From positions 25,489,250-25,553,249 of the forward strand of contig CM026570.1 in the NCBI GenBank assembly GCA_015143295.1: a DNA stretch of 64,000 nucleotides, written 5' to 3'. The DNA comes from Tetracentron sinense (Eukaryota; Streptophyta; Magnoliopsida; Trochodendrales; Trochodendraceae). Each line of letters starts with the position of its first letter. Within the stretch, counting starts at the first letter, position 1. The notes under the pieces were generated by a model. The model did not search any database, was not told the origin of the DNA, and worked only from the letters and a program-made list of their open reading frames with translations. Shown piece by piece: positions 3,001 through 49,122 of the stretch. A program made the position numbers and the translations under genes.

Positions 3001-4810
3001 CTGCAAATCGAGCAAGGTCCTTTTTTCTTAATCCCCGAAAGTGGAAAGGATTTCCATTGACTAATTTGAAATCAAATCTCTTCTCAAAGTAGTCGACATT
3101 CCCGTGGTAGGTTGAAAGCTAATCCATACCCAAAATTACATCTGGAAGTCGAGTATTATCAGATTTGCTGGTAACTCGTGCTGCCCAATACGGATAATAC
3201 AGGTTTTGTACACCTCACTAGTGATAACTGAGCTACCAAGGGGAGTGGCAATGGACAACTCACTATCTAGCCAGCTTGACTCAGATGGAAAACCTTGGGC
3301 AAACCTAGGTGTAACGAAAGAGTGTGTTGATCCCGTGTCAATCAATACATGAGCTAGACAATCGTTTATTAATAGCGATCCTGAGTTCATAAATAACTAA
3401 GTGTTAATTTATCATGAAATAATCAAAATCACACAATGTACATATTTTCGTAAAATCACATATATATAATATCATGTTTCTATAATTAGTACCATGCATA
3501 CCATCAATCTGCAATATGTAACTACTTCTACTCAATTGAATTATAAGTCATACGTACCCTAGACCACATCATCTGAGGCTAGAGCATCTTGCTCTAAGAT
3601 GGCAAAGACTCTCCCCTGAGTGTTCTAGCGAGGGGGTTGAGGGGCCTGCTAAGTCTTTGGTGCCAGAGGAGGCCTTGGTGGTGGTGTATGTCTAGCTGGA
3701 GGCCTATTTCCTTGCATCTGGGATTTCTGAGTTGCCGACTATGACTTCTGAGGGCAATCCCCAATTTGATGTCCCAAATCACCACACTAAAAACATCCGC
3801 CAGTGAGAGTATGACATTCCCTGGCCTTGTGCTTTTTCCCGCAAGGAACACAAATCTCAAACACTACTGGAGGAGTAGGCTGGGCAGGACGATTGACTGA
3901 TACTGTAGTCGTGGTAGGGCGAGGGGTAGGTGTAGGCCTCTGAGTACATAACCGGGTATGGGGCGGGCCTGGCCCTCTTCTCTAGTTGCACTGGCCCACT
4001 GGTCTGACCTCTAACCATCTTCCTATTCCTTATGTTGCTATCTCTCTTCCTAAAGAACTCCTCACAATTCTTCTCAGCTATCTTTGCCTTGTTCACTACC
4101 TCTCCAAAAGTTCATATTTGTAGTATAGAAACCTTATCCCTGATGAATGGCCTTAGACCCCTTTCGAACTTTCTGACCTTCATACTCTCATTCGAGATCA
4201 GTTGGGGTGTAAATCGAGACAGTTCAACAAAATTTGCTTCATATTCCACCACTGTCATCTCTCCCTGTTCCAAGGTGAGGAACTCAATTTCTTTCTGTTC
4301 CTTGACAAAGGCTGGAAAATACAATTTGTAAAATAAATCCAGGAATTCTGCCCATGTCCAAGGCTGTCCAATCCTTGTGATGTCTCTCTGTCTCACTGTA
4401 GCTCTCCACCAGTGCTCGGCTTCTCCTTCCATAACAAATGCAGCCCAATCAACCCTCTGTTCATTTGTACACTAGAGTACCCTAAAAATTTTCTTCAATT
4501 GTATGATCCATGCTTCAGCCGCCATTGGATCAATGGTATCATAAAATGTTGGGGGTCTCAGTCTCCTAAAAGCTTCAATTCCTGCCGTATGATGCATAGG
4601 AGGAGGAGGTGGTGGTGGTACATGTACTTCTACGTGTACAGGTGCAGCTCAAACAGGTTGCCTGGTTGCGAGGAGAGCCATTGTTTGGGCAATGGAACCC
4701 ATAACCTGTGTCAAGCCGGGCTGGTTATAACCCTCTGGGCGTCCTTCTCTAATGCCCCTTCCTGCGCTCCCCCTAGTGTTGTATCCACAAGCTCTACCAC
4801 CGCGTCTCAT
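95..4810 (-). pseudogene. E1 gag-pol polyprotein remnant (Tekay-like)
   Basis: The remnant encodes, in order, gag (core about 4432-4112), a zinc knuckle near 3797-3744 whose second spacer carries a stop codon, aspartic protease (DTGSTHSF, about 3341-3315), reverse transcriptase ([17 protein letters not shown] about 2408-2370), RNase H (YSDASH), integrase and a chromodomain-like tail ending EKYPHLFD. I placed the start at the ATG of MRRGGRACGYNTRG because C begins alike. Several frameshifts and stops break it; near 170 a Gln codon has become TAA just before the chromodomain. The product would have reverse transcribed and integrated the element; it cannot now. An intron must be removed between gag and protease (3381-3557). 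Confidence 0.9.
3381..3557 (-). other. E1 predicted gag-protease intron
   Basis: On the minus strand the gag tail (ALASDDVV, then TAG for the expected Gln) ends at a donor reading GTACGTATG, and an AT-rich 177-base stretch ends GAACTCAG before GATCGCTATTAATAAACG, which translates SLLINDC just before protease. C has a donor and acceptor at the same two codons. The unspliced frame does not continue. Position is seen; splicing is inferred. Confidence 0.65.
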
Positions 4811-5229: not shown

Positions 5230-5357
5230 TCAATAATAGGGCCATCGATCAAGGTCCCATTCTTCCTCAGGATAGTCACCTTCGGGTTCCTTGATGTACT
5301 CTTCTTTTTCCCAAGGTCCGGGTGCATAAATGTCAAAACCTGAACCTGAACCTGGAC
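5230..5357 (-). CDS. Conserved acidic LTR reading frame, E1 copy
   Basis: After the acceptor TCAGCAG at 5358 the frame reads ...GFDIYAPGPWEKEEY, then EGDYPEEEWDLDRWPYY and stops. The same layout (FDI., PW.EEEY, DLD.WP) occurs behind a CAG acceptor in A3, E2, S2, B and C. No ATG is in frame here: a TGA lies about 21 bases upstream of the acceptor. It therefore needs splicing, non-AUG start, or is not translated. I do not recognise a protein family. A purine-rich exonic splicing enhancer is the main alternative explanation for the Glu-rich run. Confidence 0.4.
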
Positions 5358-6002
5358 CTGCTGACAACAAAAGTCATTGGCTGAGTAACGAGTTACTCTG
5401 CATATATAACAGATCATAATAAACAATATAAAGAATAACTTCTTGTATGCATTTCATCACTTCATACATCAATTTACATATAAAATCAGAGTGCAGAAAA
5501 TAAACATGTACTGTAGAGACCCGAATCTTTTTTTCATATTTTTAGTGCATTGCATTAAGGGTATTTTAGTCTTTATAAGGTGTTAAAGTGTGTGTATTTA
5601 TATCTAAGTATGGTGATGTAAACTAGGCTTAATCAACTTGTAACGGATGGATGTCATAGCACATCCTAAACTTTAGGAAGCTCTAGTTTTGGCACCGTTC
5701 ACGGGAATTGAGTGATTCTTGAACCATTAGAAAGGTGTTGGAACCCTCTTCGAGGTTCATGTTTAGTGTTTTTCCTCATTTTGAGTTTAAGTCAAGTCAA
5801 TAGTGAGTTTTGTCTAATGGAATTACAGATCAGTCAACTTTGGGGACAATTTAGTCTATTAATTAAGTGGAAATTGGAAATTCTAAAATGCCAGGAATGT
5901 TCATTTTCGAGAGACGAATCCAACGCAAGTTGAATCGTCAAAATCCGATGAACGAGTAAAAAGTTATGGCCAAAACAGTAAAGGGAGTCAAAACCTGCAG
6001 GA

Positions 6003-7530: not shown

Positions 7531-7646
7531 GTTTAGAGCAGGAGTACACGGCGGAGCCGTGGGTTGAGGAGACTTACCTCGAGGAAGGAGGTGAAGGTGA
7601 GCCTTCTGAGGAGGGAGCCGGAGACTTGGGCGGCTACACCTCTTAG
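7531..7646 (+). CDS. Conserved acidic LTR reading frame, S1 copy
   Basis: Behind the acceptor CTTGGCAG (ends 7530) the frame reads LEQEYTAEPWVEETYLEEGG and ends GDLGGYTS. The PWVEE core, the acidic run and the place relative to acceptor and LTR end match the frames in A3, C, E1, E2, S2 and B, but FDIC is not recognisable. An open frame with an ATG exists upstream from 7452, crossing the acceptor hairpin CTGAGTAC/GTACTCAG (7490-7510). Start and translation are uncertain. Confidence 0.4.
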
Positions 7647-10697: not shown

Positions 10698-10889
10698 TTG
10701 ATGTCAGTAGGTACACCATTTGATATATGTGCTCTTGATCCTTGGGTAGAGGAGGACTATGGTGAGGAGAAACCATATGTGGAGCAGGTAGTAGAGCCTC
10801 AGGTGGAGGCAAGAGACTTAGATAGTTGGCCCTATTCGGGTGACCATGAGGGGCAGAGAGATAGAGAGTTTTACTGTTTTGTATTTTGA
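10698..10889 (+). CDS. Conserved acidic LTR reading frame, A3 copy
   Basis: The 63-codon frame reads MMSVGTPFDICALDPWVEED, then EEKPYVEQVVEPQVEARDLD and SWPYSGDHE. It aligns codon by codon with the C copy over the FDIC...DLD.WP core, with several silent differences (for example GAC/GAT, GGC/GGT, GCG/GCA). Two ATGs lie just upstream of the acceptor GTCAGTAG, so an unspliced start is possible. No family recognised; acidic, with fixed Trp and Pro. Confidence 0.45.
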   Translation: MMSVGTPFDICALDPWVEEDYGEEKPYVEQVVEPQVEARDLDSWPYSGDHEGQRDREFYCFVF

Positions 10890-21272: not shown

Positions 21273-21386
21273 TCAATAATATGGATAATAATCCGGATTG
21301 ATTTCCTCCTCGAGATAATCACCCTCATGTTCTTCTTGGTACTCTTCTTCAATCCAATGTTCCAGAGCACAAATATCAAACCCTCC
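21273..21386 (-). CDS. Conserved acidic LTR reading frame, E2 copy
   Basis: Just after the acceptor the frame reads GGFDICALEHWIEEEYQEEH, then EGDYLEEEINPDYYPYY and stops. FDICAL and WIEEEY match A3 and C; the PYY end matches E1. The frame is closed by TAA about 45 bases upstream and has no ATG, so its start is unresolved. Confidence 0.42.
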   Translation of the reverse strand, partial: GGFDICALEHWIEEEYQEEHEGDYLEEEINPDYYPYY

Positions 21387-25048: not shown

Positions 25049-25173
25049 TCAATAATAGTCTAGATAGGGCCTCCTATCTAGAGCTCCATCATCCTGGTGA
25101 TGATCCATGGCAGGCTCCGGTTCGTAGTACTTCTCCTCTATCCAAGACTCAGGAGCATGTGCATCCACAAAAC
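25049..25173 (-). CDS. Conserved acidic LTR reading frame, S2 copy
   Basis: Behind TTGGCAG the frame reads GFVDAHAPESWIEEKYYEPE and continues to LDRRPYLDYY before the stop. SWIEEKY corresponds to PWIEEDY in C, and the end to the WPYY of E1. An acceptor hairpin CTGAGTA/TACTCAG lies just upstream. No obvious start codon. Confidence 0.4.
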
Positions 25174-31284: not shown

Positions 31285-32062
31285 TGTAGAGCCCCGAAAA
31301 TTTGGGTCACTGTTCATGTGAGCAGCTCCCTTATACGGTATGTGTAAAGGCCTAAGGCCTTACATAGTGTTCTTGGTATTATGGTGAGTCAAGTGAGCAT
31401 TTTGGGGGCATGTGTTAATTTTCAAAGAGATAGTATAAATATACTCTAAGCAGGTAAAAGTAAGGGTATAAAATACCCTAGGTGTTTAATGGGTTGTAGG
31501 TGAGTAGTGTTGTGAATAGTGCTAGTGCGCGAGGCATAAAGAGGCCAGGGCCTCTCATGCATATTGGTAGGAATTCAATGATCACTGAGGTGGGTTGCAA
31601 ACCTATGGGGATCGATTCATGAGGTGTGAGTAGGGTGTTGGACCCAAGGGAAAAGAGTGTGAAAGCACTCCTTATGTTCTAGGGGTTGAAGAGGAATGTT
31701 TTGGCATTACCCTCAACTTTAAAAAGTTCTAGTTTACTCACCGTTGCTTGGAATTGAGTGATTCTTGAATTTTTCGACAGGTATTTAAACTCTCTTAAAG
31801 GTTCATGCTTTACATTTTTTCATATTCTAAGCGTAAGTTATGCCAAATTTGAGATTTCCGAAAGGTGCTCTGTTGTCGATTCAGCAGTCATGTTAGACTA
31901 GTCCAATTGTGGGCCCATTTAGACTATGTAAAACTCAAAATCAGGAGTTTTATAAAACATGAAAGTCGTTTCCCACTCAAAGATGAATCCAACACAAGTT
32001 GAATTGTCAAAATCAGATGAGGGATTCAAAATTTATGACCAAAATACCAAACCGGGTCAGTA

Positions 32063-32216
32063 ACCGGTCGACCGAACACAAATCCGGTCGACCGACCCTC
32101 TATCCGGTCAACCGAACCTCACTACCGGTCGACCGAACCTGCCAATTTTTGAATGAAAAATATTTCCAGAGAGCTAATTTTGATCCGATCGACCGATGGG
32201 CACCTCCGGTCGACCA
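32063..32216 (+). promoter_or_regulatory. B 5' LTR palindrome boxes (GGTCGACC type)
   Basis: Six boxes built on CCGGTCGACCGA form clusters of four and two. The spacer AATTTTTGAATGAAAAATAT plus TTCCAGAGAG corresponds to the S1 and I1 spacers. They lie about 80 bases upstream of the TATA box. Confidence 0.75.
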
Positions 32217-33739
32217 AACCACACGTTTTTGGCCTTTTTTTGGTCCATTTTAAGTCATTTCATTAAGGGTATGTTGGTCTTTGACCACCCCAACTTCTAT
32301 ATATACCCAAATTTCAGGGGTTAGGGTTTTAGAAACCCTCTAAGACACAAATTGAGAGATTTTAGAGAGAGGGAAGGGGGAAGAACTAGGATTCTTCTAG
32401 GATTTGCCTTGATTGGTCTTGAGATCAAGGAGAAAGCTTGATCTTACTCTTCAAAGCCGGAGTGAGCTTCTTCAAGCCTTCTCAATCCTTCTAAAGCTCT
32501 CAACAAAGAGGGGTTTGATCTTAAAAAGGTAAATACACTCTACTAGGTTCTAATTTCATAAACCTTTAATGATAAGCATGATTTTCTTGACAATCATAGT
32601 TATATATAGCCTCCTATATGTGGAAATACACTCTTCTAGCTATTGATTTCATGAAACCCTCTTTACATCAAGATAAAATCCTATGAATGGTGATGTGAGC
32701 TAACTTGTGATGATGTTATGCCTTTAACCCATGAATAAAAGGTGTAAATGGTTATATGTTTTATATGTTAGTTTCCAAAGATGAAAAGCATGTTAAAAGC
32801 CACAAGTTTTGAGAAAAACAAGTAGAAAAATCTTATTTTCAATGTGATTGGAATGATGTGATGTTATTATATACGGATTATTGTGATGGATGAATTATGT
32901 TTAGTATTGGACATATGACCATATGTAAAGTGTTTCCTTTAATGTCTACCATGTTATATCACAATTGCTACACGGACACATATGCATATGCATGATCGAG
33001 TTTTTCTAAATTATGGGTATCCAAAAGAAGAAGTACAAGTATATAAGATGTAATACAAGAATAAGAAGAGGAAAAGTATAAGATGCAAATGAACCAAATG
33101 AAAAGTACAAGAAGCAAAAGATGTATACAGAAAGTATAAGAAGCACAAGATGTATATGAAAAGTATAAGGGGCAAAATAGGTTACAAGAAGTACAAGAAG
33201 ATGGAAAGTATATGGAAAATGCCGATGGGGATGCACGATAGCAACCGCCTGGAAGGGAAATGGATACTGGCATCGGACTCTGATGATAGCAGGCCGCTCA
33301 GAAGGGAGATGGATACTGATCATCTACTCCGAAGGTAGCCAATGGTGAGGAGAACATTAGGCCACCCAGCTTACGTGGGTACGGGTACTAGTTGTCCGAC
33401 TCCGGAGGTAACAAATGATGAATACTAAGGTATTTTAAATACTCGTACATGAGAAGATAATAAAAGATGAAAACCAAGGTATTTTAAATACCTGTATATG
33501 CAAGGATAAAAGATGATAAGAAGACGTTTTCGATAAAAGATGATAAGAAGATGTTTTCCGATAGTATTTTTTTGAGATATATGCACATGATATGATTTGG
33601 TTTTCCGCTCTCTGATTTCAGGAATGCATGTGAAGTGATTAAACTGTGACAGATGTTGTATTGCTGTTTATGATATTACTATCTAGTGGTTTGTATACGC
33701 TGAGTATTCCATGCTTAGTCGTACATATTATGTCGGTAG

Positions 33740-33834
33740 GTCCCTTCGACATCTGTGGCGAGCGTCCTCAGGAGCCGTGGTTCGGGGAAGGGTATGTTGA
33801 GGAGGAGGAGACTTGGGGTAGTCTTCAAGAGTAG
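33740..33834 (+). CDS. Conserved acidic LTR reading frame, B 5' LTR copy
   Basis: After the acceptor the frame reads GPFDICGERPQEPWFGEGYV, then EEEETWGSLQE and a TAG. The 3' LTR copy (38001-38146) runs on to RAFVRWPLHE, so this TAG is a secondary nonsense change. ATG TCG lies just upstream of the acceptor. Confidence 0.42.
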
Positions 33835-34145
33835 AGGGCTCAGGAGGAGTAGAGGGCTTTCGTTAGGTGGCCCCATCATAACTGATGAGAGGGAGAGACT
33901 TGTACATATATTTTATTGAGCGAGTATGTTCGCTCTTTATTTTGAGTTATGTATAAACTGAGATATAGTATGTATAAAAATTTTGTAGTACACTTCCGCT
34001 ACCATATATAGATTGTATTACGCTTCCGCTATCACAGGTTTTATATGTTGCACAGGATTTATATGTTATATAGGATGGTTTGGTAATGTGTTTCCGACGC
34101 CAAAGTATCCTAACTCCTAAGGGGTATTTTGGGTCGCGACAGGTT

Positions 34146-34157
34146 TGGTATCAGAGC
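34146..34157 (+). other. B primer-binding site
   Basis: TGGTATCAGAGC, four bases after the LTR end CGCGACA. Confidence 0.92.
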
Positions 34158-35560
34158 TTAGGCTCTAGATTCCCTCAGATTGGGGTTGTTGTACTAAGGT
34201 AGATGTATCTCCTTCAAGTTAGAGTATGTTCGAGTCTAGGCATTGGAATGGTACGGGTAGAAGTGGTCCTTCGAGTTCAACCTAGAACTCAGATGAACTT
34301 GAATTTTAGGATGATACAACGACACCATAGGTACCAAGTAAGGGTATTAGATCCATATAGGAAACGGTATTCCAAGTATAGACTACGTGGATACCTCAAC
34401 CGACTTGATTCCTAGCTTCGCTAAGTTATTTAGGAATCCATATTATGGGTATACTATATGTACTGTGTCACATCATGGTTAGGAACCCTAGAAGAAAGAA
34501 AAATAATAATAAATGAATAAATATATATATGTAAATTTTTGGACATGCTCATGGATGTTTGAAGCATGTTTCTAGATACAGATGCGCATTTTCTGCAGCA
34601 CGTTCTAGACTCAGTGCTCACTCCAAAAGTCTAGATACAGATGCACGTTAATTCTGCAGCACGTTCTAGACCCATTGCTATGTCCAAAATGATAAACATA
34701 TTATAAACTCCAAGGATAATTTTCATCATACATAACATCATACACATCATGAGCATCATCCATTTCATGAACATCATACATGACATGAGCATTATACATA
34801 GCATCATACATGACATGAGCATCATACATAGCATCATACATGACATAAGCATCATACATAGCATGAGCATCATACATAGAATGCGTCTCATACATATCAT
34901 AAGCATCATGCACATCTCATATGCATCATATAGATCTTAGAAATATCATACATGTCACAAAGATTTAAAGGAAATTGCTTAAATAACTCAAGGGTGTAAA
35001 CAACTCATTAGTCTTAATCTTAAGTCGGTTAATGTCTTAAGTATGTAGTCGGTTAGGGTTTTAACCATGTTTTAGAATGTAGCTTCGCTAGGAAACCAAA
35101 GTGTATGCCTATACTATTAATTGTATACCATGATGTATACGAAGCGCTATATAATCACTATATGCTCATTGAACTATTCAAAGATCTTGATTCAAATTAG
35201 ATTCACGTTGTGTTATTGCTCTCAGGACTATAGTCATGAGACGCAGTAATAGAAGAAGCAAGAACCCAGTGTAAAATTCTATAATGATCGTAAGACATGC
35301 TATTATACAACTATATGTGCAATATATTGTGATGTATGAACTTATGTATGCCTAATGAAAAATAATAACATAGTTATGTATGGTACTTTGGCACCTTGCT
35401 AGTAAGTGAGTGCCTAGTCCATGTGCTAGTCTAAATTGGATTGACACATCCTAGTGAATCTAGGGTTGTCAAGTCATATGCTCAGTAAAGTAAAGTGAAG
35501 TGTGAGAATTATATCCCCGTTTTTCTGTGTGAAAGTCCTAATTTCGAGGACGAAATTCTT
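34158..35560 (+). other. B non-coding interior
   Basis: No gag or pol motif is visible in any frame. It holds a 60-base duplication marked TTCTGCAGCACGTTCTAGAC (34569-34690), a CAT-rich repeat (34735-34930) and otherwise AT-rich sequence. Near 35550 it gains the CGAGGACGAAATTCTTATAA block seen before the C tract. Confidence 0.7.
34735..34930 (+). repeat. CAT-rich simple tandem repeat
   Basis: Units such as CATGAGCATCATACATAG and CATACATGACATGAGCAT repeat about ten times with drift. The long apparent frames here come from the repeat. Confidence 0.8.
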
Positions 35561-35574
35561 ATAAGGGGGGAGGA
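35561..35574 (+). other. B polypurine tract
   Basis: ATAAGGGGGGAGGA directly precedes the 3' LTR start TGTAGAGCC. C has GTAAGGGGGGAGGA at the same point. Confidence 0.9.
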
Positions 35575-36356
35575 TGTAGAGCCTTGGAAATTTGGGTCAC
35601 TGTTCATGTGAACAGCACCCTATTATGGTATGTGTAAAGGCCTGAGGCCTTACATTGTGTTCTTGGTATTATGGTGAGTCAAGTGAGCATTTTGGGGGCA
35701 TGTGTTAAGTCTTAAAGAGAGAGTATAAATATACTCTAAGTGGGTAAAAGTAAGGGTATAAAATAACCTAGGTGTTTAATGGGTTGTAGGTGAGCAATGT
35801 TGTGAATAGTGCTAGTGCACGAGGCATAAAGAGGTCGGGGCCTCTCACACATATTGGTAGGAATTCAATGATCCCTGAGGTGGGTTGCAAACCTATGGCG
35901 ATCGATTCATGAGGTGTGAGTAGGGTGTTGGACCTAAGGGAAAAGAGTGTGAAAGCACTCCTTATGTTCTAGGTGTTGAAGAGGAATGTTTTGGCATTAC
36001 CCTCAACTTTAAAAAGCTTTAGTTTAGTCACCGTTGCTCGGAATTGAGTGATTCTTGAATTTTTGGAAATTTAATTAAACCTTCTTAAAGGTTCATACTT
36101 TACGTCTTTTCAGATTTTAAGAGTAAGTTATGTCAAATGTGAGATTTCCGAAAGGTGGTCTGCTATCGATTCAACAGTCATGTTGGACTAGTCCACTTGT
36201 GGGCCCGACCCTCTAGACTATGTAAAACTCAAAATTAGGAGTATTATAAAAAATAAAAGTTGTTCCCCTTTTAAAGCCGAATCCAACGCAAGTTGAATCG
36301 TCAAAATCCGATAAGGGAGTCAAAAGTTATGACCAAAATACCAAACCGGGTCAGAT

Positions 36357-36491
36357 ACCAGTCGACCGAACACAAATCCGGTCGACCGACCCTCTATCCG
36401 GTCGATCGAACCTGCCAATTTTTGTATGGAAAATATTTCCAGAGAGTTTATTTTGATCCGGTCGACCGATGGGCACCTCCGGTCGACCGAA
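36357..36491 (+). promoter_or_regulatory. B 3' LTR palindrome boxes
   Basis: Five GGTCGACC-type boxes in clusters of three and two around a TTTGTATGGAAAATATTTCC spacer. The fourth box of the first cluster, present in the 5' LTR, is missing. Confidence 0.72.
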
Positions 36492-38000
36492 CCACACGTT
36501 TTTGGCCTTTTTTGGTCCATTTTAAGTCATTTCATTAAGGGTGTGTTGGTCTTTGACCACCCCAACTTCTATATATATCCAAATTTCGTGGGTTAGGGTT
36601 TTAGAAACCCTCTAAGACACAAATTGAGAGATTTCAGAGAGAGGGAAGGGGGAAGAACTAGGCTTTTACGATTTTCCTTGATTGGTCTTGAGATCAAGGA
36701 GAAAGCTTGATCTTACTCTTCAAAGTCGGAGTTAGCTTATTCAAGCCTTCTCAATCCTTCTAAAGCTCTCAACAAAGAGGGGTTTGATCTTAAAAAGGTA
36801 AATACACTCTACTAGGTTCTAATTTCATAAACCTTTAATGATAAGCATGATTTTCTTGACAATCATAGTTATATATAGCCTCTTATATATGGAAATACAC
36901 TCTTCTAGCTATTGATTTCATGAAACCCTCTTTACATCAAGATAAAATCCTATGAATGGTGATGTGAGCTAACTTGTGATGATGCTATGCCTTTAACCCA
37001 TGAATAAAAGGTGTAAATGGTTATATGTTTTATATGTTAGTATCCAAAGATGAAAAGCATGTTAAAAGCCACAAGTTTTGGGAAAAACAAGTAGAAAAAC
37101 CTTATTTCAAATGTGATTGGAATGATGTGATGTTATTATATATGGATTATTGTGATGGATAAATTATGTTTTGTATTGGACATATGACCATATGTAAAGT
37201 GTTTCCTTTAATGTCTACCATGTTATATCACAATTGCTACACGAACACATATGCATATGCATGATCGAGTTTTTCTAAATTATGGGTATCCAAAAGAAGA
37301 AGTACAAGTATATAAGATGTAATACAAGGATAAGAAGAGGAAAAGTATAAGATGCAAATGAACCAAATGAGAAGTACAAGAAGCCAAAGATGTATACGGA
37401 AAGTACAAGATGCACAAGATGTATATGGAAAGTATAAGAGGCAAAAGAGGTTACAAGAAGATGGAAAGTATATGGAAAAAGTCGATGGGGATGCACGATC
37501 GTAGGCCGCCTGGAAGGGAAATGGATACTGGCATCAGACTCCGATGATAGCGGGCCGCCGGAAAGGAAGATGGATACTGGTCGTCTACTCCGTAGGTAGC
37601 CAAAGGTGAGGAGAATATTAGGCCACCCAGCTTACGTGGGTACGGGTACTAGTTGTCTGACTCCAGAGGTAGCAAATGATGAATACCAAGGTATTTTAAA
37701 TACTCGTACATGAGAAGATAATAAAAGATGAAAACCAAGGTATTTTAAATACCTGTATATGCAAGGATGAGAGATGATGAGAAGACGTTTTCGATAAAAG
37801 ATGATAAGAAAGTGTTTTCCGATAGTATTTTTCCGAGATTTATGCACATGATATGACCTGGTTTTCCGCTCTCTGATTTCAGGAATGCATGTGAAGTGAT
37901 TAAACTGTGACATATGTTGTATTGTTGTTTATGATATTACTATCTAGTGGTTTGTATACGTTGAGTATTCCATTCTCAGCCGTATATATTATGTTGGCAG

Positions 38001-38146
38001 GTCCCTTCGATATCTGTGGCGAGCGTCCTCAGGAGCCGTGGGTCGAGGAAGGGTATGTTGAGGAGGAGGAGACTTGGGGTAGTCTTCAGGAGCAGAGGGC
38101 TCACGAGGATCAGAGGGCTTTTGTTAGGTGGCCCCTTCATGAGTGA
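38001..38146 (+). CDS. Conserved acidic LTR reading frame, B 3' LTR copy
   Basis: The frame reads GPFDICGERPQEPWVEEGYV, EEEETWGSLQEQRAHEDQ and RAFVRWPLHE before TGA. PWVEEGY and RWP match the other copies. C inserted 110 bases downstream, so the frame is intact. An ATG (ATGTTGGCAGGT) lies just before the acceptor, so both a spliced and an unspliced product can be drawn. Confidence 0.45.
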
Positions 38147-38539
38147 TCAGAGGGAGAGACTTGTACTTATATTTTGTTGAGCGAGTATGTTTGGTCTTTA
38201 TTTTGAGTTGTGTATACTGAGATATAGTATGAATAAAAATTTTGTAGTACGCTTCCTGTCACGCCCCAAAATACCCCCTAGGAGTTTAGGGATACTTTAG
38301 GTGGACTATACAAACCTGCCAAACCATCCTGTAATGAACAAGGCAAAATATAATACTAATACAATGAAAATCAGAGCACGGAAGCTAAACATAAAATGCG
38401 GAAGCGCAACCAACTCTTTTTTTTTTCTTCTAAAGTTCCAAAACAGTATTCCAAGTTTAACATATGTACAACACGTCTAAGCATAAGGTGGACAGGCCCA
38501 CCTAAGAAATACAAAAGACAAAATACAACTCTGTCTCGC

Positions 38540-38685
38540 TCAATAGTCACCCCCGTGGGGCCAATGGTCTAAGTCTCTCGCCTCCGCCTGAGGCTCGACT
38601 ACTAGATCCTCATAAGGTTCCTCCTCGCCATAGTCCTCCTCTATCCAAGGACCCGGATCACAAATGTCGAGAGGGACTCGGGTAC
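38540..38685 (-). CDS. Conserved acidic LTR reading frame, C 3' LTR copy
   Basis: Read on the minus strand: VPLDICDPGPWIEEDYGEEE, then PYEDLVVEPQAEARDLDHWP and HGGDY, stop TGA. It aligns without gaps to A3 over the core, with silent and conservative differences. ATGTCGGCAGGT precedes it, so translation may start at MSAG without splicing. Predicted 45-50 residues, very acidic, no membrane segment. Function unknown. Confidence 0.48.
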
Positions 38686-38912
38686 CTGCCGACATGAAAG
38701 TACGACTGAGCATGGAATACTCAGCGAGTACAAGCCCCTAACTAACAATGGTAATAACGAACAACATCATATACAAGTAATGGGAGGAGTATAGTTCATA
38801 ATCATTTCTAGCAACCTCATACATAAACATTTTATCAAGTCATAATTATTATGAAACTAAAACATGTCTATGCATCATACAATTCCTCTTTGAGTTGTCC
38901 TTTCAATATTTC

Positions 38913-39528
38913 TTATGAGCCAGAGGTTAGCACCCGCATATCCCTGGGCTACCAACCTCCTTGACAGTACAATACCTTTCTTATGAGCCAGGGGTTAGCA
39001 CCCGCACATCCCTGGGCTACCAACCCCCTTGACAGTACAATACACTTCTTATGAGCCAGAGGCTAGCACCCTCACATCCCTGGGCTACCAGCCTCCTTGA
39101 CAGTACGATACCTTACTTATGAGCCAGAGGTTAGCACCCGCACATCCCTGGGCTACCAACCCCCTTGACAGTACAATACCTTTCTTATGAGCCAGAGGTT
39201 AGCACCCGCATAATCCTGGGCTACTAACCTCCTTGACAATACCATTTCCTTTCTTAAGAGCCAGAGGTTAGCACCCTTAACCGAGGCTACCAACCTTCTT
39301 GACAGTGCAACATTTCCGAGTCCTTTCTTATGAGCCAGGGGTTAGTACCCGCATGATCCCTGGGCTACCAACCCCCTTGACAATGCAATACGTTTCTTAT
39401 GAGCCAGAGGCTAGCACCCGCATAATCCTGGGCTACTAACCTCCTTGACAATACTATTTCATTTCTTATGAGCCAGAGGTTAGCACCCGCACATCCCTGG
39501 GCTACCAACCCCCTTGACAATATCCTCC
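38913..39528 (-). repeat. C 3' LTR tandem stem-loop array (68-base units)
   Basis: Nine units start at 38913, 38981, 39049, 39117, 39185, 39254, 39328, 39397 and 39466. On the sense (minus) strand each can pair GGTTGGTAGCCC with GGGTGCTAACC. Arms change together (plus strand): GAGGTT/AACCTC, GGGGTT/AACCCC, GAGGCT/AGCCTC; units at 39117, 39397 and 39466 keep pairing through G-U on the sense strand; the unit at 39254 has an A-C mismatch. The array is in the predicted LTR intron. Confidence 0.88.
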
Positions 39529-40345
39529 ATCTACATATGTGCTCGTGCATAGCAATCGTGAAATCATGATGACATATAGCATTTTAACAATTCCCAACTC
39601 ACATGAGAATTTAAGAAGCGAAATAAACACATGCATACAACTTGCCAAATGGGGAACATTTATGTGACTCATGCTTTCAAATCTTAGTTTATTCATGCAT
39701 TCTATCAAACATGTGGTATTCAACCTTTTTACCTTTAGTTATTTATATTTTCTCATTCGAACATTTCATCAAACACTTGGGGTGTGTTCATTATGCGTAA
39801 TATGCCCTTCCACCATTTTTTCCATCATTCAACACATCACAACATGGCATCCAATCGCCTCCACTCCTCATCCATTCATACATTCCACCATTTTTTTGTA
39901 TTATCTTGTTTATGTTTTAGGGATTTAGCATATACCAACACAAGGGAGCAATGGGGAAGATCCAACACATATTTACTTAGAAAAATCCTAGGTTATTACC
40001 AAAGTAACTAGGAAGAGTGTACTAACCTTGAAAAGGGAAAGAAAAATCCTTGAGGATGATGTAGAAACGCTGCCCTAGCTTGGAAGAGGTACTCCACACG
40101 AGCTTGAGGTTGGATTTGGAGAATCCAAGCCTTTTAGAACGATTCTAGGGTTCTAAAACCCTTGATTGAAGCTCTTCTTGGTTTCAAGCAAAACCCTCTT
40201 TGGAATGCTCAAGATCCTTTCCTTCTCTTTCTAGGAACTCTCCTTGGTTTAGGGTAACCCAAAAACCCTCCTAAAGTCTTCTATTTATAGTGTAAGGGGT
40301 GAAAAACCCCTAAAAAATCGCATCCAAGAAAGTAAAATCGCGTAT

Positions 40346-40533
40346 CTACGATCGTTGGTAGCGATTTACGATTGATTGTAGCCTTCTACGATCGATCGTA
40401 GATTCCTACGATCAATCGTAGTTTCACCCGAGAGTTTTTAGCATTTCTGGGGCTTTACGATCGATCGTAGCAACTCTACGATCGTTCGTAGCTCCGCTAC
40501 GATCGTTCGTAGGGTCCCTACGAGCGATCGCAA
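40346..40533 (-). promoter_or_regulatory. C 3' LTR palindrome boxes (CTACGATC type)
   Basis: Eight 16-base boxes of CTACGATC-GATCGTAG type form two clusters of four with a 40-base spacer. Outer arms CTACGA/TCGTAG are almost fixed while the centre varies (GA, GT, AA). They lie 56 bases upstream of the TATA box on the minus strand. Confidence 0.78.
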
Positions 40534-41066
40534 CTTTTGCAGAAAGCTTCAGCATTTTTATATTTTCGTATCTCGGCCATAACTTTTGACTCGCTTGTCC
40601 AATTTTGACGATTCAACTTGCGTTGGATTCTTCTTTTGAAGGAGAACAACTTTCATGTTTTTCAAAACTTCTAATTCTTCCTTTTTCTTGGACCATGTTG
40701 CCCCTAAACCTGACTGATCCGAAATTGGGTTTCGTCAATCCAGATTTTAAACCGACCCGACTTCAGAAATCGGTCTTTTGACCTAACACCAACTCAAAAC
40801 CAAGACAAGTGATCAACATGAACCCCGAAGACGGTTCAATTACCTTTCCAAAAATCCAAGAATCGCTTGATTCCGACGAGCGGTGTGAACGCTAGGGCTA
40901 TTTAGAGTCGAGGGTATGCCAAGGCATAACCCTTGTCAATACTCAAGAGTATTCTATACTCTTGCCTATTTCATTCCAAACACCCATACACCATAAATAC
41001 ATTCTTACATGCTTTAGTATATGATATCATTCGTCGTACATGGCCATCAAGATCCGGGGTTCTACA

Positions 41067-41082
41067 TCCTCCCCCCCTTACA
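41067..41082 (-). other. C polypurine tract
   Basis: Read on the minus strand it is CTGTAAGGGGGGAGGA, directly before TGTAGAACCCC. Confidence 0.92.
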
Positions 41083-41145
41083 GAAATTTCGTCCTCGAAA
41101 TTGGAACGATACATAGAGATTATAAAGAACAAAATTACATAAACA

Positions 41146-44100
41146 TCACTCAAACAAATTAGGATATTTTTCCCTCACTTCCGCTTCGCGCTCCCATGTA
41201 GCTTCTTCTCGTGAATGGTGTTGCCATCGAACAAGAACCAAGGGGATGACCTTATTGCGCAAGACTTGATCCCTACAGTCCAAAATTTGAACCGGCTCTT
41301 CCACCAAAGTGAGATCCTGAGAAGGATCCGGAATATATTTCCGAAGCATAGATACATGGAATACGTTGTGAACCACCGCCATGTGAGTGGGTAGAGCAAC
41401 CCGGTATGCAACTTCACCAATTCGGGTGATAATTTCAAATGGACCAACATACCTCGGGCTGAGCTTTCCTCTTTTGCCAAACCTCATAACACCCTTTGTC
41501 GGTGAAATCTTCACAAATACCATATCGCCAATACGGAACTCAAGATCTCGTCTACGGGTGTCGGCATAGCTCTTTTGCCTGTCCTGAGCCGTCTTTAATC
41601 TCTCTCTGATGATCTTGACTTTATTCGCGGTTTGTTCAATCAATTCCGGGCCCAATATCTTTCTCTCTCCAACTTCATCCCAGTATAGGGGAGATCTACA
41701 ACTTCGACCATACAAGGCCTCAAAAGGAGCCATTTGGATGCTCGCCTGATAGCTGTTATTGTAGGCGAATTCCACCAATGGCAAGTGATCCTCCCAACTG
41801 CCTTTGAAGTCCAACATGCAAGCTCGGAGCATGTCCTTTATAACCTGGTTCACCCTCTCGGTCTGTCCATCTGTCTGAGGATGAAAGGCGGTGCTAAAGT
41901 CTAGCCGGGAACCCATGGCATCCTGAAAACTTTTCCAAAACCTGGATGTGAATCTTGGATCCCGGTCTGAGACAATGCTCACTGGTACTCCATGCAATCG
42001 GACTATCTCTTTGATTTACAAGGCAGCTAACTGATTTGAGTTGAATGTAGTCCGGTACGGTAAGAAATGGGCGGACTTCGTGAGTCTGTCAACAACAACC
42101 CATATCGCATCAGTCTTTCTAACTGTCTTTGGCAACCCCACAATGAAGTCCATAGAGATATGTTCCCATTTCCACTCGAAAATAGGGAGAGACTGCAACA
42201 GACCCGCCGGTCTCCTGTGCTCGGCCTTGACTTGTTGGCACACCAAGCATCGGGACACGTACTCCGCTATTTCTCGCTTCATGTTCCGCCACCAAAAGTG
42301 CTTCTTCAAGTCCCTATACATCTTGGTACCCCCGGGGTGAACGGTGTACTTGGACCGGTGAGCCTCGTACAAGATTTCTCGTTTAAGCTTCTCATCGGCT
42401 GGGACACATACTCTTTCCTTGAAAGTGATAATTCCATCATCCCTCACCACAAAATCCTTGATGCCACTTTTAACTGACTGGTCTCGGCAAGACAGTAGCT
42501 CGGCATCCATTCCCCGCAACTCCCTCGTCATGCTCAGGATATATGGCCTAACTGTGATATTAGCCATTACTGGCCCAAAAGTAGGGAGACTAAAACTGAT
42601 GTCGAGGTTGGATGCATCTTCTAACAACCTCCATTCCCTCAGCATCATGTGCGCCAAAAGTCCAGTGGGCTTCCGGCTAAGAGCATCGGCTACAACATTC
42701 GCCTTGCCCGGATGATATTGAATGGAACATTCGTAGTCTTTCAAAAACTCTACCCATCTCCTCTGCCTTAAATTCAATTCCTTTTGGGAGAACAGGTGCT
42801 TCAAGCTTTTATGGTCCGTAAATACGTCGAACTGTTCCCCATAGAGATAATGTCGCCAAATCTTCAAGGCAAACACAACCGCGGCGAGCTCTAAATCGTG
42901 AGTGGGATAATTCTTCTCATACTCTTTCAATTGCCTGGAGGCGTAAGCAATGACTTTGCCGTGCTGCATAAGTACACATCCCAACCCCACATGCGAGGCG
43001 TCACTGTAAACCACAAAACCACCACTCTCGGATGGCACAGTAAGGACGAGGGCCGTGGTGAGGCGTTTCTTCAACTCTTGGAAGCTCGCTTCGCATCTGT
43101 CGCTCCAACTAAACTTAGCATTCTTTCTCGTCAGGTAAGTGAGAGGTGCAGCCAAACTGGAGAATCCCTCCACGAATCTCTGATAATAGCCTGCCAACCC
43201 GAGAAAACTACGTATCTCCGTGACGCTCTTGGGTCTCTCCCATATCATAACTGCCTCTATCTTTGCCGGGTCAACAGAAATACCCTCAGCCGACACTACG
43301 TGGCCTAGGAACGCCACATTCTCCAACCAAAATTCACACTTGCTTAACTTAGCGTATAGCCTATGCTCTCTCAATATCTCCAGAGCAAGACGAAGGTCTC
43401 GTGCGTGATCTTCCCGTGTCTGGGAATACACCAAAATGTCATCTATGAACACAATCACACATCGATCCAAGTACGATCGGAACACCCGGTTCATCAAATC
43501 CATGAACGCCGCCGGTGCATTCGTCAGCCCAAAAGGCATGACAAGGAACTCGTAGTGCCCATACCGAGTCCTGAAAGCCGACTTTGGAACATCTGCCGCC
43601 TTGATCTTTAACTGATGATACCCCGATCTAAGATCAATCTTGGAGAAAAATCTCGCTCCCTTCAGTTGGTCAAACAAGTCGTCTATCCGAGGCAAAGGAT
43701 AACGATTCTTAATAGTTATCTTGTTCAACTGCCGGTAATCTATGCACATTCTCATTGACCCGTCTTTCTTTTTCACAAAGAGGACCGGAGCTCCCCATGG
43801 TGACACACTTGGTTGGATGAAACCAAGTTGTTGTAACTCCTCAATTTGCTTCTTTAATTCCTCAAGCTCTATTGGGGCCATTCTATATGGTGCCCTTGAA
43901 ATCGGAGCGGTGCCTGGAGTAAGCTCTATAGCGAACTCAATCTCCCGATCCGAAGGCAATCCGGGAAGTTCCTCCGGAAACACATCCAAGAACTCACTCA
44001 CGACCGGAATGACCGAGGAGTTTTGTGCTTCTGGGTTTGCTAAGCTCAAAGCTGCGAGGCGAGCAATGTCTCTTTCCCTCAACCCTCGAAAGTGAAATGG

Positions 44101-45814
44101 CTTAACTCCCATCGGCTCAAAGTTCACCATCTTCTCGAAACATGCCACATGTCCGTGGTGAGCCGATAGCCAATCCATACCAAGTATGACATCGAAATCT
44201 AAGTCTTGGAAGTCCAGGATGATGAGGTCGGCTAACAACTCATTCTGTCCCACTTGGACTACACAGTCCCTGTATATATGGTCCGTGTCCACTGACTTGC
44301 CGAGCGGTGTGGAGATGGTTAATTCATGCTTCAACTGACTGGACATGGTTGGAAATCCTTTCGCAAAGCTAGGCGATACAAAGGAATGAGTGGATCCTGT
44401 GTCGATCAACACTTGGGCTAGGCATTCATTCACTAATAACGCGCCTGTGTGATTAATTAAATTCACGTTAATAGATTTCACGCAATAACACATAAGTACA
44501 GGTAGCATGTCATACATATAAGCAATCACATTACATAATAACAGCCAATTACAACTCGAAACTTTAGCATGATAGCGTACCTTGCACGACATCGTCAGAT
44601 GCACGTGCATCCCGTTCCGATAAAGCAAAAACCTGACCCTGGTTTGCCCTACGAGGCGGTGGAGTGGATAACGTGGGTCGTGAAGGCCTAGACGCAGAAG
44701 CCTGTGAGGATCCCGGCTGGGAATCCTGTCGAACTAGGGGCCTACTCCCCTAGGGTTGGATAGGCTGCAGCTGCCTGCGTGGGCAATCCCTGACCATGTG
44801 ATTCACATCTCCACAGTGAAAGCACCCACCCGAAATCCTCTGACATTCACCAATCCGGTGACTCCGACCACAATAGGAGCACTCCTCAAATGCTGATGAG
44901 GATGAAGGTGGAACATATCGGGTGGCCTGTGAAAGTGTGGGACGAGGTACCGGTGTAGTGGTAGGCCGAGATACCTGTGATGTCAAGGGAGGCCTCGGTG
45001 ACCGTATCAGCCTGGATGCCTGATATGGGGCTGTCCTAACCCTCTTCTCTGCCGACCCCGAACTACTCGACTGGCCTCGAGTCATATCCCTTCTCTTGAA
45101 GAATTCTTCCGAATTCTTCTCGGCAAGCTTCGCCTTGCTCACCTCTCCCCAGGTAGCCACCTGGAACATTGAGACCCTGTCTCTAATGGAGGGTTTCAAT
45201 CCCCGCTCAAATTTCCTGACTCGCATATGCTCTGATGTAATTAGGTGAGGTGCGAATCTCGATAACTCCACGAAGGTAGCCTCATAATCGGCCACACTCA
45301 ACTCTCCTTGTTCAAGAGTCATGAATTCAATCTCCTTCTGTTCTTTGACAGCTGCTGGAAAATACTGCTTATAGAAGAAATCCAAAAATTCCAGCCATGT
45401 CCACGGCTCCCCCGCCCTGGTGGACTCCCTCTGTCTCTGTGCGGCTCTCCACCAATGCTCGGCCGCACCTTCCATCACGAAGGTGGCCCAGTCCACTCTC
45501 TGTTCATCCGTGCAGTGGAGCGCACTAAAAATCTTTTCCAATTGCATCACCCATGCCTCGGCGACCATGGGGTCAGTAGTACCAAAAAAGGTAGGAGGAC
45601 GTAATCTCCTAAATGCTTCCAATCCTGAAGCATGGTGTGCCGGAGGTGGCGGAGGTGTAGAAGGAGTAACAGCAACCGGCCTTGCTGCTAACATAGCCAA
45701 AGTCTCGGCTATAGATGCAAACGCTTGGGCAAAATTGGGTTGCTCGTCACCGGAAGGGGCATCACTTCCATTTCCCCTCGTATTGTATCCGCGACCCCGA
45801 GCACCGCGTCTCAT
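41146..45814 (-). pseudogene. C gag-pol polyprotein (Tekay-like), two nonsense codons
   Basis: Minus strand. Gag starts at MRRGARGRGYNTRG; core about 45480-45100; two knuckles, CSYCGRSHRIGEC (a CX2CX3HX4C variant) and CFHCGDVNHMVRDC (about 44880-44785). Protease DTGSTHSF near 44400; RT with YRQLN and [12 protein letters not shown] near 43450; RNase [14 protein letters not shown]; integrase HHCC region near 42330-42240, catalytic SMDFIVGLP and [11 protein letters not shown]; chromodomain-like tail [20 protein letters not shown]. Removing the intron 44445-44580 gives a single frame broken only by TAG at 44747-44749 (after QPIQP) and TAA at 42013-42015 (Tyr of QLAALY expected). Otherwise complete and probably functional until recently. 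Confidence 0.93.
44445..44580 (-). other. C predicted gag-protease intron (136 bases)
   Basis: Gag ends ARASDDVVQ with donor GTGCAAG/GTACGC; the acceptor is AATCACACAG/GCGCG, followed by [16 protein letters not shown]. Unspliced, the gag frame meets TAA within six codons. The length is not a multiple of three, and removal restores the frame through protease. The interior is AT-rich. E1 has donor and acceptor at the same codons and E2 the acceptor. Confidence 0.75.
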
Positions 45815-46140
45815 GATGTGATCCTGAGAACGACAGTACCACATGAGTCTAACTTGGATACGTGTTTAGCAATAATTCAATAATTGCACAATATTTAATA
45901 ACAATTTTAGCATCCCTATCATTTATTGAGCATATGACAATTCATTCAAGGTATACACAGCAACAACAAGCATACGTTCGTGTTCTACCGTAGGTTACTA
46001 AGTGCGGTTTGGCTTTCCAACCGGTTATGGACTAAGACTAAGTTATTAGTCTATACTTGGAATACGACTCCTCTTAGTGGCCTAAGACCTTGTTCAATCA
46101 TAGTATCAGTTCTAGTGACCCTAAGGACTCTAACGGCTAG

Positions 46141-46152
46141 GCTCTGATACCA
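46141..46152 (-). other. C primer-binding site
   Basis: Read on the minus strand it is TGGTATCAGAGC, four bases from the LTR end GGCGTGACA. Confidence 0.95.
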
Positions 46153-46440
46153 CCTCTGTCACGCCCCAAAACACCCCCTAGGAGTTTAGGGATACTTTAG
46201 GTGCACTATACAAACCTGCCAAACCATCCTGTAATGAACAAGACAAAATATAATACTAATACAATGAAAATCAGAGCGCGGAAGCTAAACATAAAATGCG
46301 GAAGCGCAACCAACTCTTTTTTTTTTCTTCTAAAGTTCCAAAACAGTATTCCAAGTTTAACATATGTACAACACGTCTAAGCCTAAGGTGGACAGGCCCA
46401 CCTAACAAAATACAAAAGACAAAATACAACTCTGTCTCGC

Positions 46441-46586
46441 TTAATAGTCACCCCCGTGGGGCCAATGGTCTAAGTCTCTCGCCTCCGCCTGAGGCTCGAC
46501 TACTAGATCCTCATAAGGTTCCTCCTCGCCATAGTCCTCCTCTATCCAAGGACCCGGATCACAAATGTCGAGAGGGACTCGGGTAC
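46441..46586 (-). CDS. Conserved acidic LTR reading frame, C 5' LTR copy
   Basis: Same frame as 38540-38685 (VPLDICDPGPWIEEDYGEEE ... GGDY); the stop is TAA here and TGA in the other LTR. No disabling change separates the two copies. Confidence 0.48.
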
Positions 46587-46813
46587 CTGCCGACATGAAA
46601 GTACGGCTGAGCATGGAATACTCAGCGAGTACAAGCCCCTAACTAACAATGGTAATAACGAACAACATCATATACAAGTAATGGGAGGAGTATAGTTCAT
46701 AATCATTTCTAGCAACCTCATACATAAACATTTTATCAAGTCATAATTATTATGAAACTAAAACATGTCTATGCATCATACAATTCCTCTTTGAGTTGTC
46801 CTTTCAATATTTC

Positions 46814-47425
46814 TTATGAGCCAGAGTTTAGTACCCGCATATCCCTGGGCTACCAACCTCCTTGACAGTACAATACCTTTCTTATGAGCCAGGGGTTAGC
46901 ACCCGCACATCCCTGGGCCACCAACCCCCTTGACAGTACAATACACTTCTTATGAGCCAGAGGTTAGCACCCTCACATCCCTGGGCTACCAACCTCCTTG
47001 ACAGTACGATACCTTACTTATGAGCCAGAGGTTAGCACCCGCACATCCCTGGGCTACCAACCCCCTTGACAGTACAATACCTTTCTTATGAGCCAGAGGT
47101 TAGCACCCGCATAATCCTGGGCTACTAACCTCCTTGACAATACCATTTCCTTTCTTATGAGCGAGAGGTTAGCACCCTTAACCGAGGCTACCAACCTCCT
47201 TGACAGTGCAACATTTCCGAGTCCTTTCTTATGAGCCAGGGGTTAGTACCCGCATGATCCCTGGGCTACCAACCCCCTTGACAATGCAATACATTTTTTA
47301 TGAGCCAGAGGCTAGCACCCGCATAATCCTGGGCTACTAACCTCCTTGACAATACCATTTCCTTTCTTATGAGCCAGAGGTTAGCACCCGCACATCCCTG
47401 GGCTACCAACCCCCTTGACAATATC
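46814..47425 (-). repeat. C 5' LTR tandem stem-loop array
   Basis: Nine units as in the 3' LTR with a few substitutions. The sixth unit pairs GAGGTT with AACCTC here while the 3' LTR has AACCTT; the unit near 46950 has GAGGTT/AACCTC where the 3' LTR has GAGGCT/AGCCTC, so both arms differ together between the two LTRs of one element. Confidence 0.87.
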
Positions 47426-48247
47426 CTCCATCTACATATGTGCTCGTGCATAGCAATCGTGAAATCATGATGACATATAGCATTTTAACAATTCCCAACT
47501 CACATGAGAATTTAAGAAGCGAAATAAACACATGCATACAACTTGCCAAATGGGAAACATTTATGTGACTCATACTTTCAAATCTTAGTTTATTCATGCA
47601 TTCTATCAAACATGTGGTATTCAACCTTTTTACCTTTAGTTATTTCATATTTTCTCATTCGAACATTTCATCAAACACTTGGGGTGTGTTCATTATGCGT
47701 AATATGCCCTTCCACCATTTTTCCCATCATTCAACACATCACAACATGGCATCCAATCGCCTCCACTCCTCATCTATTCATACATTCCACCATTTGTTTG
47801 TATTATCTTGTTTATGTTTTAGGGATTTAGCATATATCAACACAAGGGAGCAATGGGAAAGATCCAACACATATTTACTTAGAAAAATCCTAGGTTATTA
47901 CCAAAGTAACTAGGAAGAGTGTACTAACCTTAAAAAGGAAAAGAAAAATCCTTGAAGATGATGTAGAAACGCTGCCCTAGCTTGGAAGAGGTACTCCACA
48001 CGAGCTTGAGGTTGGATTTGGAGAATCCAAGCCTTTTAGAATGGTTCTAGGGTTCTAAAACCCTTGATTGAAGCTCTTCTTGGTTTCAAGCAAAACCCTC
48101 TTTGGAATGCTCAAGATCCTTTCCTTCTCTTTCTAGGAACTCTCCTTGGTTTAGGGTAACCCAAAAACTCTCCTAAAGTCTTCTATTTATAGTGTAAGGG
48201 GTGAAAAACCCCTAAAAAATCGCATCCAAGAAAGTAAAATCGCGTAT

Positions 48248-48435
48248 CTACGATCGTTCGTAGCGATTTACGATTGATCGTAGCCTTCTACGATCGATCG
48301 TAGCTTCCTACGATCAATCGTAGTTTCACCCGAGAGTTTCCAGCATTTTTGGGGCTTTACGATCGATCGTAGCAACTCTACGATCGTTCGTAGCTCCGCT
48401 ACGATCATTTGTAGGGTCCCTACGAGCGATCGCAA
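48248..48435 (-). promoter_or_regulatory. C 5' LTR palindrome boxes
   Basis: Eight CTACGATC-type boxes in the same four-plus-four layout as 40346-40533. One box has decayed to CTACGATCATTTGTAG. Confidence 0.77.
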
Positions 48436-49122
48436 CTTTTGCAGAAAGCTTCAGCATTTTTGCGTTTTCGTATCTCGGCCATAACTTTTGACTCGCTTGT
48501 CCAATTTTGACGATTCAACTTGCGTTGGATTTTTCTTTCGAAGGAAAACAACTTTCATGTTTTTCAAAACTTCCAATTCTTCCTTTTTCGTGGACCATTT
48601 TGCCCCTAAACCTGACTGATCCGAAATTGGGTTTCGTCAATCCAGATTTTAAACCGACCCAACTTCAGAAATCGGTCTTTTGACATAACACCAACTCAAA
48701 ACCAAGACAAGTGATCAACATGAACCCCGAAGAGGGTTCAATTACCTTTCCAAAAATCTAAGAATCGCTTGATTCCGATGAGCGGTGTGAACGCTAGGGC
48801 TATTTAGAGTCGAGGGTATGCCAAGGCATAACCCTTGTCAATACTCAAGAGTATTCTATACTCTTGCCTATTTCATTCCAAACACCCATACACCCTAAAT
48901 ACATTCTTACATGCTTTAGTATATGATATCATTCGTCGTACATGGCCATCAAGATCCGGGGTTCTACACTTCCGCTACCATATATAGATTGTATTACGCT
49001 TCCGCTATCACAGGTTTTATATGTTGCACAGGATTTATATGTTATATAGGATGGTTTGGTAATGAGTTCACGATGCCAAAGTATCCTAACTCTTAGGTGG
49101 TATTTTGGGTCGCGACACCTAA

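Follow-up and report, generated by a model that had tools for sequence, protein, structure and literature searches.

The LTRs of seven families in the window, i.e. the whole stretch of 64,000 nucleotides of Tetracentron sinense DNA that was analysed, encode a short acidic peptide that is under purifying selection and is read in a fixed phase from an acceptor-like site. In the explanation that we prefer and consider reasonably probable, the frame is an alternative terminal coding exon: the copy in the 3' LTR would be spliced to the gag donor and give a Gag protein with an acidic tail. The gag/pro donor is found in the matching phase and its splicing appears to have left intron-less copies in the genome; the join between this donor and the LTR acceptor is what we infer.

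Copies of the frame and their place in the LTR

Translation of all frames and of the flanks revealed the frame in the seven LTR families, and many copies of it occur across the 1.16-Gb host genome. The frame was confirmed at each of the nine places named in the original prediction, with several corrections (Table 1). Five of the nine copies (E1, E2, S2 and both copies of C) lie on the minus strand, which had gone unstated, and coding starts on the base after the AG (10711 instead of 10698 in A3, 21385 instead of 21386 in E2). The copy at 33740 in B is present but decayed, and the A3 copy, without the usual stop, extends 13 codons beyond the end point of the C frame. In the families measured, the stop is located about 230-295 nt from the LTR end. 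The frame is found inside the LTR, near its 3' end, and not between pol and the 3' LTR as expected of an aORF.

Table 1. Coordinates in the window of the tail exons and associated features (a slash marks a splice junction)
Feature	Position	Strand	Remarks
Tail exon, element C 5' LTR copy	46441..46586	-	AG precedes 46586; stop 46441-46443
Tail exon, element C 3' LTR copy	38540..38685	-	copy that would act as terminal exon
Tail exon, element E1	5230..5357	-	coding from 5357
Tail exon, LTR S1	7531..7646	+	coding from 7531
Tail exon, LTR A3	10711..10889	+	usual stop gone, reads through to 10889
Tail exon, element E2	21273..21385	-	coding from 21385
Tail exon, LTR S2	25049..25173	-	coding from 25173
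Tail exon, element B 5' LTR	33740..33834	+	decayed, in-frame stops
Tail exon, element B 3' LTR	38001..38146	+	open
Hairpin, element C 5' LTR	46607..46625	-	21-39 nt upstream of acceptor; counterpart in C 3' LTR at 38706-38724
gag/pro intron, element C	44445..44580	-	136 nt; donor CAAG/GTACGC, acceptor ACACAG/GCGC, phase 1
gag/pro intron, element E1	3381..3557	-	same phase as C intron
Listed ORF holding gag, element C	44750..45844	-	gag ATG 45814; in-copy stop interrupts gag before donor
5' LTR, element C	46156..48968	-	
3' LTR, element C	38256..41066	-	element C nested in 3' LTR of B
Leader donor-like site GAAAG/GTAATT, C 5' LTR	48740..48750	-	second copy at 40838-40848; TATA-like box lies upstream at about 48799-48808
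Block of about 370 nt	48459-48838; 5641-5990, 26871-27250, 31680-32060, 35970-36354, 40563-40936		

The host element displays gag and pol ORFs, a PBS-like sequence (TGGTATCAGAGC) and LTRs of 2.8 kb, and in its relatives the pol C-terminus is 60% identical. These features fit the Tekay/Del chromoviruses, which are defined by a Ty3/gypsy gag-pol with a chromovirus integrase end, a tRNA-Met-type PBS and long LTRs, and the elements are tentatively placed in that clade, whose name comes from the original prediction and from general knowledge. In the nest formed by B and C (31285-49117), the internal region of B measures only about 1.4 kb and retains remnants of the gag start and of the gag/pro boundary. 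A tandem array of 68-bp repeats was observed in both C LTRs (38841-39522 and 46742-47423), and self-comparison revealed in another repeat a tandem array at 60430-61710 whose units are about 65 bp apart.

An alignment of eight window copies, from which B1 was omitted because of its stops, gave the consensus xPFDICAPEPWIEExYxEEEP...DLDxWPY with one W, one E and one Y invariant. The tail has a length of roughly 36-48 residues and is acidic, with 11-16 D/E against 0-4 K/R in nine representatives. Searches with this alignment found no relative among 56 stretches of viral contigs, and the four candidates obtained from the protein collection were not significant.

A first look through the host genome with the E2 tail produced 11,316 candidates; 150 of them were scored and, among the matches listed, identity ranged from 58 to 100%, some matches having internal stops. 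In addition, 20 copies were chosen solely for their gag donor sequence and the expected 5' LTR end region was examined. The hairpin and LTR end described below were present in 17/20, and in 15 of these 17 the frame was open to the usual stop. The open frame of L104 carries an in-frame deletion of five codons, the tail of L107 contains one stop, and L110, in which YAG is changed to AAG, was left unscored; in L097, L111 and L115 no LTR end was detected at the expected place.

Purifying selection on the tail

In the window comparisons, carried out by the Nei-Gojobori method on an alignment built from the translations, a procedure that favours the frame, pS exceeded pN in 21/21 family pairs. For C and A3, dS was 0.77 and dN 0.19; many other window pairs have saturated dS. 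The same substitutions were also scattered randomly over the sequence, asking how often as many residues survive, and the four pairs assayed gave P values of 0.027, 0.0002, 0.0002 and 0 of 20,000. Differences at codon positions 1, 2 and 3 numbered 8, 9 and 14 between C and A3, and 7, 12 and 18 between E1 and E2.

The excess of pS disappeared or was reduced in the shifted frames. The pS/pN values for C and A3 were 0.48/0.17 in the true frame and 0.24/0.23 and 0.15/0.19 in the shifted ones, which contain 5 and 7 stop-containing codons; the corresponding values for E1 and E2 were 0.79/0.25 against 0.29/0.37 and 0.50/0.32, with 0 and 6 stop-containing codons. Amino-acid identity between E1 and E2 dropped clearly, from 21/36 in the true frame to 13/35 and 12/29, whereas one shifted frame of C and A3 was about equal to the true one (24/37 versus 30/45, stop codons excluded).

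Among the genomic copies, pN/pS was calculated on 14 gag-picked ones (two C-type copies and L110 being omitted) and seven intron-less ones, two of these containing a stop, which was skipped. The ratio was 0.20 within subfamily T1 (10 copies) and 0.27 within T2 (9 copies). Comparisons of T1, T2 and S with one another gave 0.31, 0.24 and 0.19; S itself offers one pair, which has replacement changes only and hence no ratio. The intron-less subfamilies represented by L023 and L025, which align without gaps, gave a dN of 0.12 and a dS of 0.57. In samples of 12 pairs, the aligned tails showed no indel in any of five comparisons, nor did the 60 nt upstream of the acceptor, against 5-38 indels in flanks of similar length. 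Between subfamilies, the upstream and downstream flanks contained 34 and 26, 38 and 29, and 27 and 15 indels, respectively, in three such samples.

The tail is a coding exon under purifying selection in which the amino-acid sequence is kept. Of the two possibilities first raised, a peptide or a purine-rich splicing enhancer encoding Glu by coincidence, the ratios of about 0.2-0.3 (0.19-0.31 over the five comparisons that yielded one) and the indel-free sampled tails support the conserved peptide.

Acceptor-like site and hairpin at the frame start

In 7/7 window families the frame starts in phase 1 at a YAG/G (CAG or TAG followed by G), and two bases complete a split codon there in every family. 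An acceptor-like site at the first base of the frame would explain why the original prediction could not settle on a start codon. Judged by its pyrimidine content between -20 and -4, which reaches 53-71% in nine window copies compared with 88% in L003, the putative LTR acceptor is not a strong one. The spacing between the acceptor and the invariant Trp differs among families by whole codons, and the spacing between the hairpin and the acceptor is variable.

This hairpin, of the type CTGAGTA..TACTCAG, is located upstream of the acceptor in the window families and is degenerate in E2. With arms aligned by hand, pairing was 86%, against 16-44% for slid versions. The hairpin was also considered as a covarying structure, for which the signal is weak: 1/7 pairs was changed on both sides, and shuffles of the hand-aligned arms reached the observed number of doubly changed cells in 39/500 cases and the observed covariation score in 54/500. 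The z-scores of single sequences ranged from -2.6 to +0.1, and the hairpin pattern was matched by one viral contig (L004) as well.

The gag/pro intron and its donor

In element C, gag runs as ..ASDDVVQ up to the donor and protease sequence is found beyond the acceptor. The acceptor-side sequence of the intron is retained in E2 and B, the AG being altered in B. The donor leaves one codon base, which is completed as G+GC in pro or would be completed as G+GT in the LTR, Gly in both cases; its phase is the phase of the LTR acceptor. The gag-pol region of C, taken from its gag ATG up to where pol ends, contains 269 GT sites; scored with a donor matrix, the gag/pro donor ranks third among them and first among the 64 in phase 1.

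A 22-nt donor pattern gave 8,043 genomic matches at no more than 2 mismatches and the control none, and the 32 loci examined (L065-L096) all possess the post-intron exon sequence 125-146 nt downstream of the donor. The 27-nt spliced gag/pro junction gave 12 genomic matches at 1-3 mismatches, the control again none. In a gag tree of 10 of these 12 copies (L013-L022) and 33 intron-bearing copies, most spliced-junction copies adjoin different intron-bearing ones, L017 and L022 standing apart. This pattern suggests that the intron was lost repeatedly, independently and recently, apparently through reverse transcription of spliced RNA. The gag/pro intron would therefore be spliced in living elements, and the DNA copies point to a GT-AG intron that is removed in RNA.

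The LTR itself carries a leader donor-like site, present in C, S1, B1 and L002 and lost in B2 and S2. An acceptor-like CTCAG/G (45824/45823) is located a few bases upstream of the gag ATG of C and, in a scan of 42 copies, was kept in 36 of the 37 in which this ATG could be located. These two sites suggest further splicing of the leader from the LTR. The TATA-like box, the position of the leader donor and a stretch ending in AAAAGTTATG make up a block of some 370 nt towards the 5' end of the LTR, which is about 64-73% conserved among S1, S2, B and C, well past the donor. A conserved block near the LTR 5' end (..NPTQVESSKSDK..) was assayed as a coding sequence and rejected, two frames being about equally conserved.

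Intron-less copies and relatives

Of the 12 intron-less places, nine have the tail in the 5' LTR end; it is open in seven of these nine, and L024 and L026 have stops in it. No LTR end was found in L027 and L031, and no YAG/G in L030. Had the intron been lost long ago, tails in these copies would speak against the gag donor, but the tree suggests recent losses.

Plant-like retrotransposon contigs (L001, L002 and L003) were encountered in the Streptomyces clavifer, Geminicoccus harenae and Solirubrobacter assemblies. L002 and L003 are plant contaminant in two bacterial assemblies and their gag-pol is one open frame; their LTR displays a TATA-like box, a leader donor, the hairpin and a pyrimidine-rich acceptor, and in L003 the frame in the tail phase closes after 4 codons. 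Four relatives with long open frames (L117-L120) were examined in the host genome. L117 (1,470 codons) and L119 (1,477 codons) possess the hairpin followed by TTTCAG/GA and a frame that closes after 2 codons; no hairpin was detected at the expected place in L118 (1,530 codons) or L120 (1,057 codons). L003, L117 and L119, three relatives that have no gag/pro intron, have thus kept hairpin and acceptor, the tail frame being absent. Among the lineages examined, the tail was encountered solely in the group that has this intron, a link that rests on few independent lineages. The acceptor and the hairpin may be older than the tail.

Proposed production of the peptide

We propose that, in a full-length transcript, the gag donor would join the nearby pro acceptor to give Gag-Pol or, alternatively, would skip pol and join the acceptor of the 3' LTR. 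The product of this second choice would be Gag followed by an acidic tail that contains Trp and Tyr, and its short mRNA would end in the LTR. On unspliced RNA, translation of Gag would stop a few codons inside the intron, and this RNA would also serve as genome. As a guess, the tail may make Gag a form dedicated to assembly or, as with CERV in Cer1, a regulator of genomic RNA. The peptide had been described as outside gag-pol, which holds for its position; its product would most likely be a C-terminal extension of Gag, and the peptide is probably not free-standing. Spliced retrocopies were sought as proof of the tail join, and genomic DNA contained no spliced leader junction and, at no more than 3 mismatches, no gag-tail junction of either C-type or T1/T2-type. 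Copies of the latter are hardly expected in DNA, since such RNA would be without the polypurine tract.

A more extensive version, in which a tailed Gag, made as a third gene product when the host spliceosome skips pol, would regulate the element's RNA throughout the group in the manner of Rev or CERV, and in which acceptor and hairpin, at first a leader-splicing signal, would later have gained a coding exon together with the gag/pro intron, is possible and we hold it tentatively.

In our opinion, the frame is unlikely to be translated from its own ATG (ATG-TCG-GCA-G/GT...), in an LTR transcript or a leader-spliced RNA, as a uORF or a stand-alone small protein. Such an ATG is found by reading in frame 10 nt upstream of the acceptor in A3, B, C and 15/17 gag-picked copies, some in-frame upstream ATG exists in 20/30 E-family loci (chosen by protein similarity), and the start ATG is present in most C, T1 and T2 copies and many E copies; the 60 nt preceding the frame, ATG included, are well conserved. 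However, no start codon is common to all families, as a stand-alone uORF would have: by reading, the in-frame ATG is absent from the open upstream stretch of E1, E2, S1, S2 and L032, and subfamily S (L099, L101) has ATA in its place. The comparison of L032 with S2, both ATG-less, still gives a pS of 0.82 and a pN of 0.18 over 40 codons. Judging from the TATA-like box, an unspliced RNA would begin about 2 kb upstream of this ATG. The stretch from this box to the leader donor holds no ATG in six aligned LTR copies. An exon within the LTR was likewise rejected as the supplier of a start, on account of this same stretch and of stops found by reading in the needed phase in B1 and S1.

The tail could also be spliced to another phase-1 donor, for instance at the Gag N-terminus or in pol, producing a small Gag-N/tail or a Pol/tail protein. 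Phase-1 GT sites common to C, E1 and the D copies do exist near the gag start (TTCCG/GTGACG in C, ATCAG/GTGATG in D and AGAGG/GTTATA in E1), and intron-less copies retain open tails, but the near-start sites of C are outside its six best phase-1 donors, headed by the gag/pro donor, and use is indicated for the gag/pro donor only; we consider another donor improbable. The pol end was rejected as a donor, the strongest donor of C (41452) being in phase 2 and the C pol stopping before the LTR.

Finally, it is very improbable that the frame is an RNA element, either a purine-rich enhancer or a leader-splicing signal, open by accident and with an acceptor used for 5' LTR leader splicing only: the 60 nt of hairpin and acceptor are indeed the most conserved part (4/60 differences between L023 and L025, versus 21/131 in the tail), they persist in the three relatives devoid of the frame, and several LTRs carry the leader donor-like site, but the silent-site bias and the indel-free frame are not predicted by an enhancer that encodes Glu by chance, and a leader signal requires no reading frame.

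Discussion

Coding capacity is not usually attributed to the LTRs of plant elements. With a conserved exon in its LTR, an abundant kind of plant transposable element would have one more product, and the choice of acceptor would offer a way of setting the ratio of Gag to Gag-Pol. Pieces of LTR landing in host genes could, by extension, act as ready-made terminal exons. For the additional ORFs of plant elements, the location given in most cases in the passages concerned of PMC7264820 is the region between pol and the 3' LTR, and a paper on Del LTRs has no word starting with splic, intron or ORF (PMC4029996). Literature searches limited to open-licence papers listed none that describes an LTR terminal exon of this kind in its title or abstract opening. 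In sunflower, according to parts of PMC7730604, Tekay is absent from the set of expressed elements and other clades are alternatively spliced; RNA evidence may hence be hard to obtain.

The closest plant system is offered by the barley Copia element BARE1, which has, in the sections on its splicing, a facultative GT-AG intron of 104 nt at the gag/pr boundary and a spliced RNA class devoted to Gag only (PMC3735527). An intron at the gag/protease boundary is common to BARE1 and to the present elements; in BARE1, Gag ends three residues past the junction, the acceptor is in the pr region and not in the LTR, and these sections describe no conserved tail (PMC3735527). Unlike in BARE1 as presented there, removal of the gag/pro intron in the present elements would join Gag to Pol.

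The Ty3/gypsy element Cer1 of C. elegans produces a spliced mRNA in which gag exons are followed by a far 3' exon that supplies a C-terminal part of its own, and the resulting CERV is required for export of Cer1 genomic RNA, as stated in the passages on Cer1 (PMC10309623). The likeness lies in the joining of gag exons to a far 3' exon, which for our elements is a proposal. CERV has 517 residues, with its C-terminal half coming from the fifth exon, and these passages do not place that exon in the 491-bp Cer1 LTR (PMC10309623). Ogre, in the excerpts concerning it, contains a facultative intron between its ORFs (PMC6317226), and resembles the present elements in that a partially spliced intron of a plant Ty3/gypsy element controls polyprotein output. 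The position of the Ogre intron is different; the same excerpts describe Bianca as two separated ORFs and mention neither Tekay by name nor an exon in the LTR.

The comparison with retroviruses is made here without any claim of homology. MMTV Sag and HIV Nef are retroviral proteins encoded wholly or partly by the 3' LTR and translated from spliced RNAs; each starts at an ATG of its own, and neither is a Gag tail. In CRM elements, the pol frame continues into the LTR. CRM chromodomains reach into the 3' LTR, in the passages at hand, and these elements share with ours a coding sequence within the LTR of a plant chromovirus (PMC3605345). Unlike in CRM, the present exon is situated far inside the LTR, near its 3' end, behind an acceptor-like site of its own.
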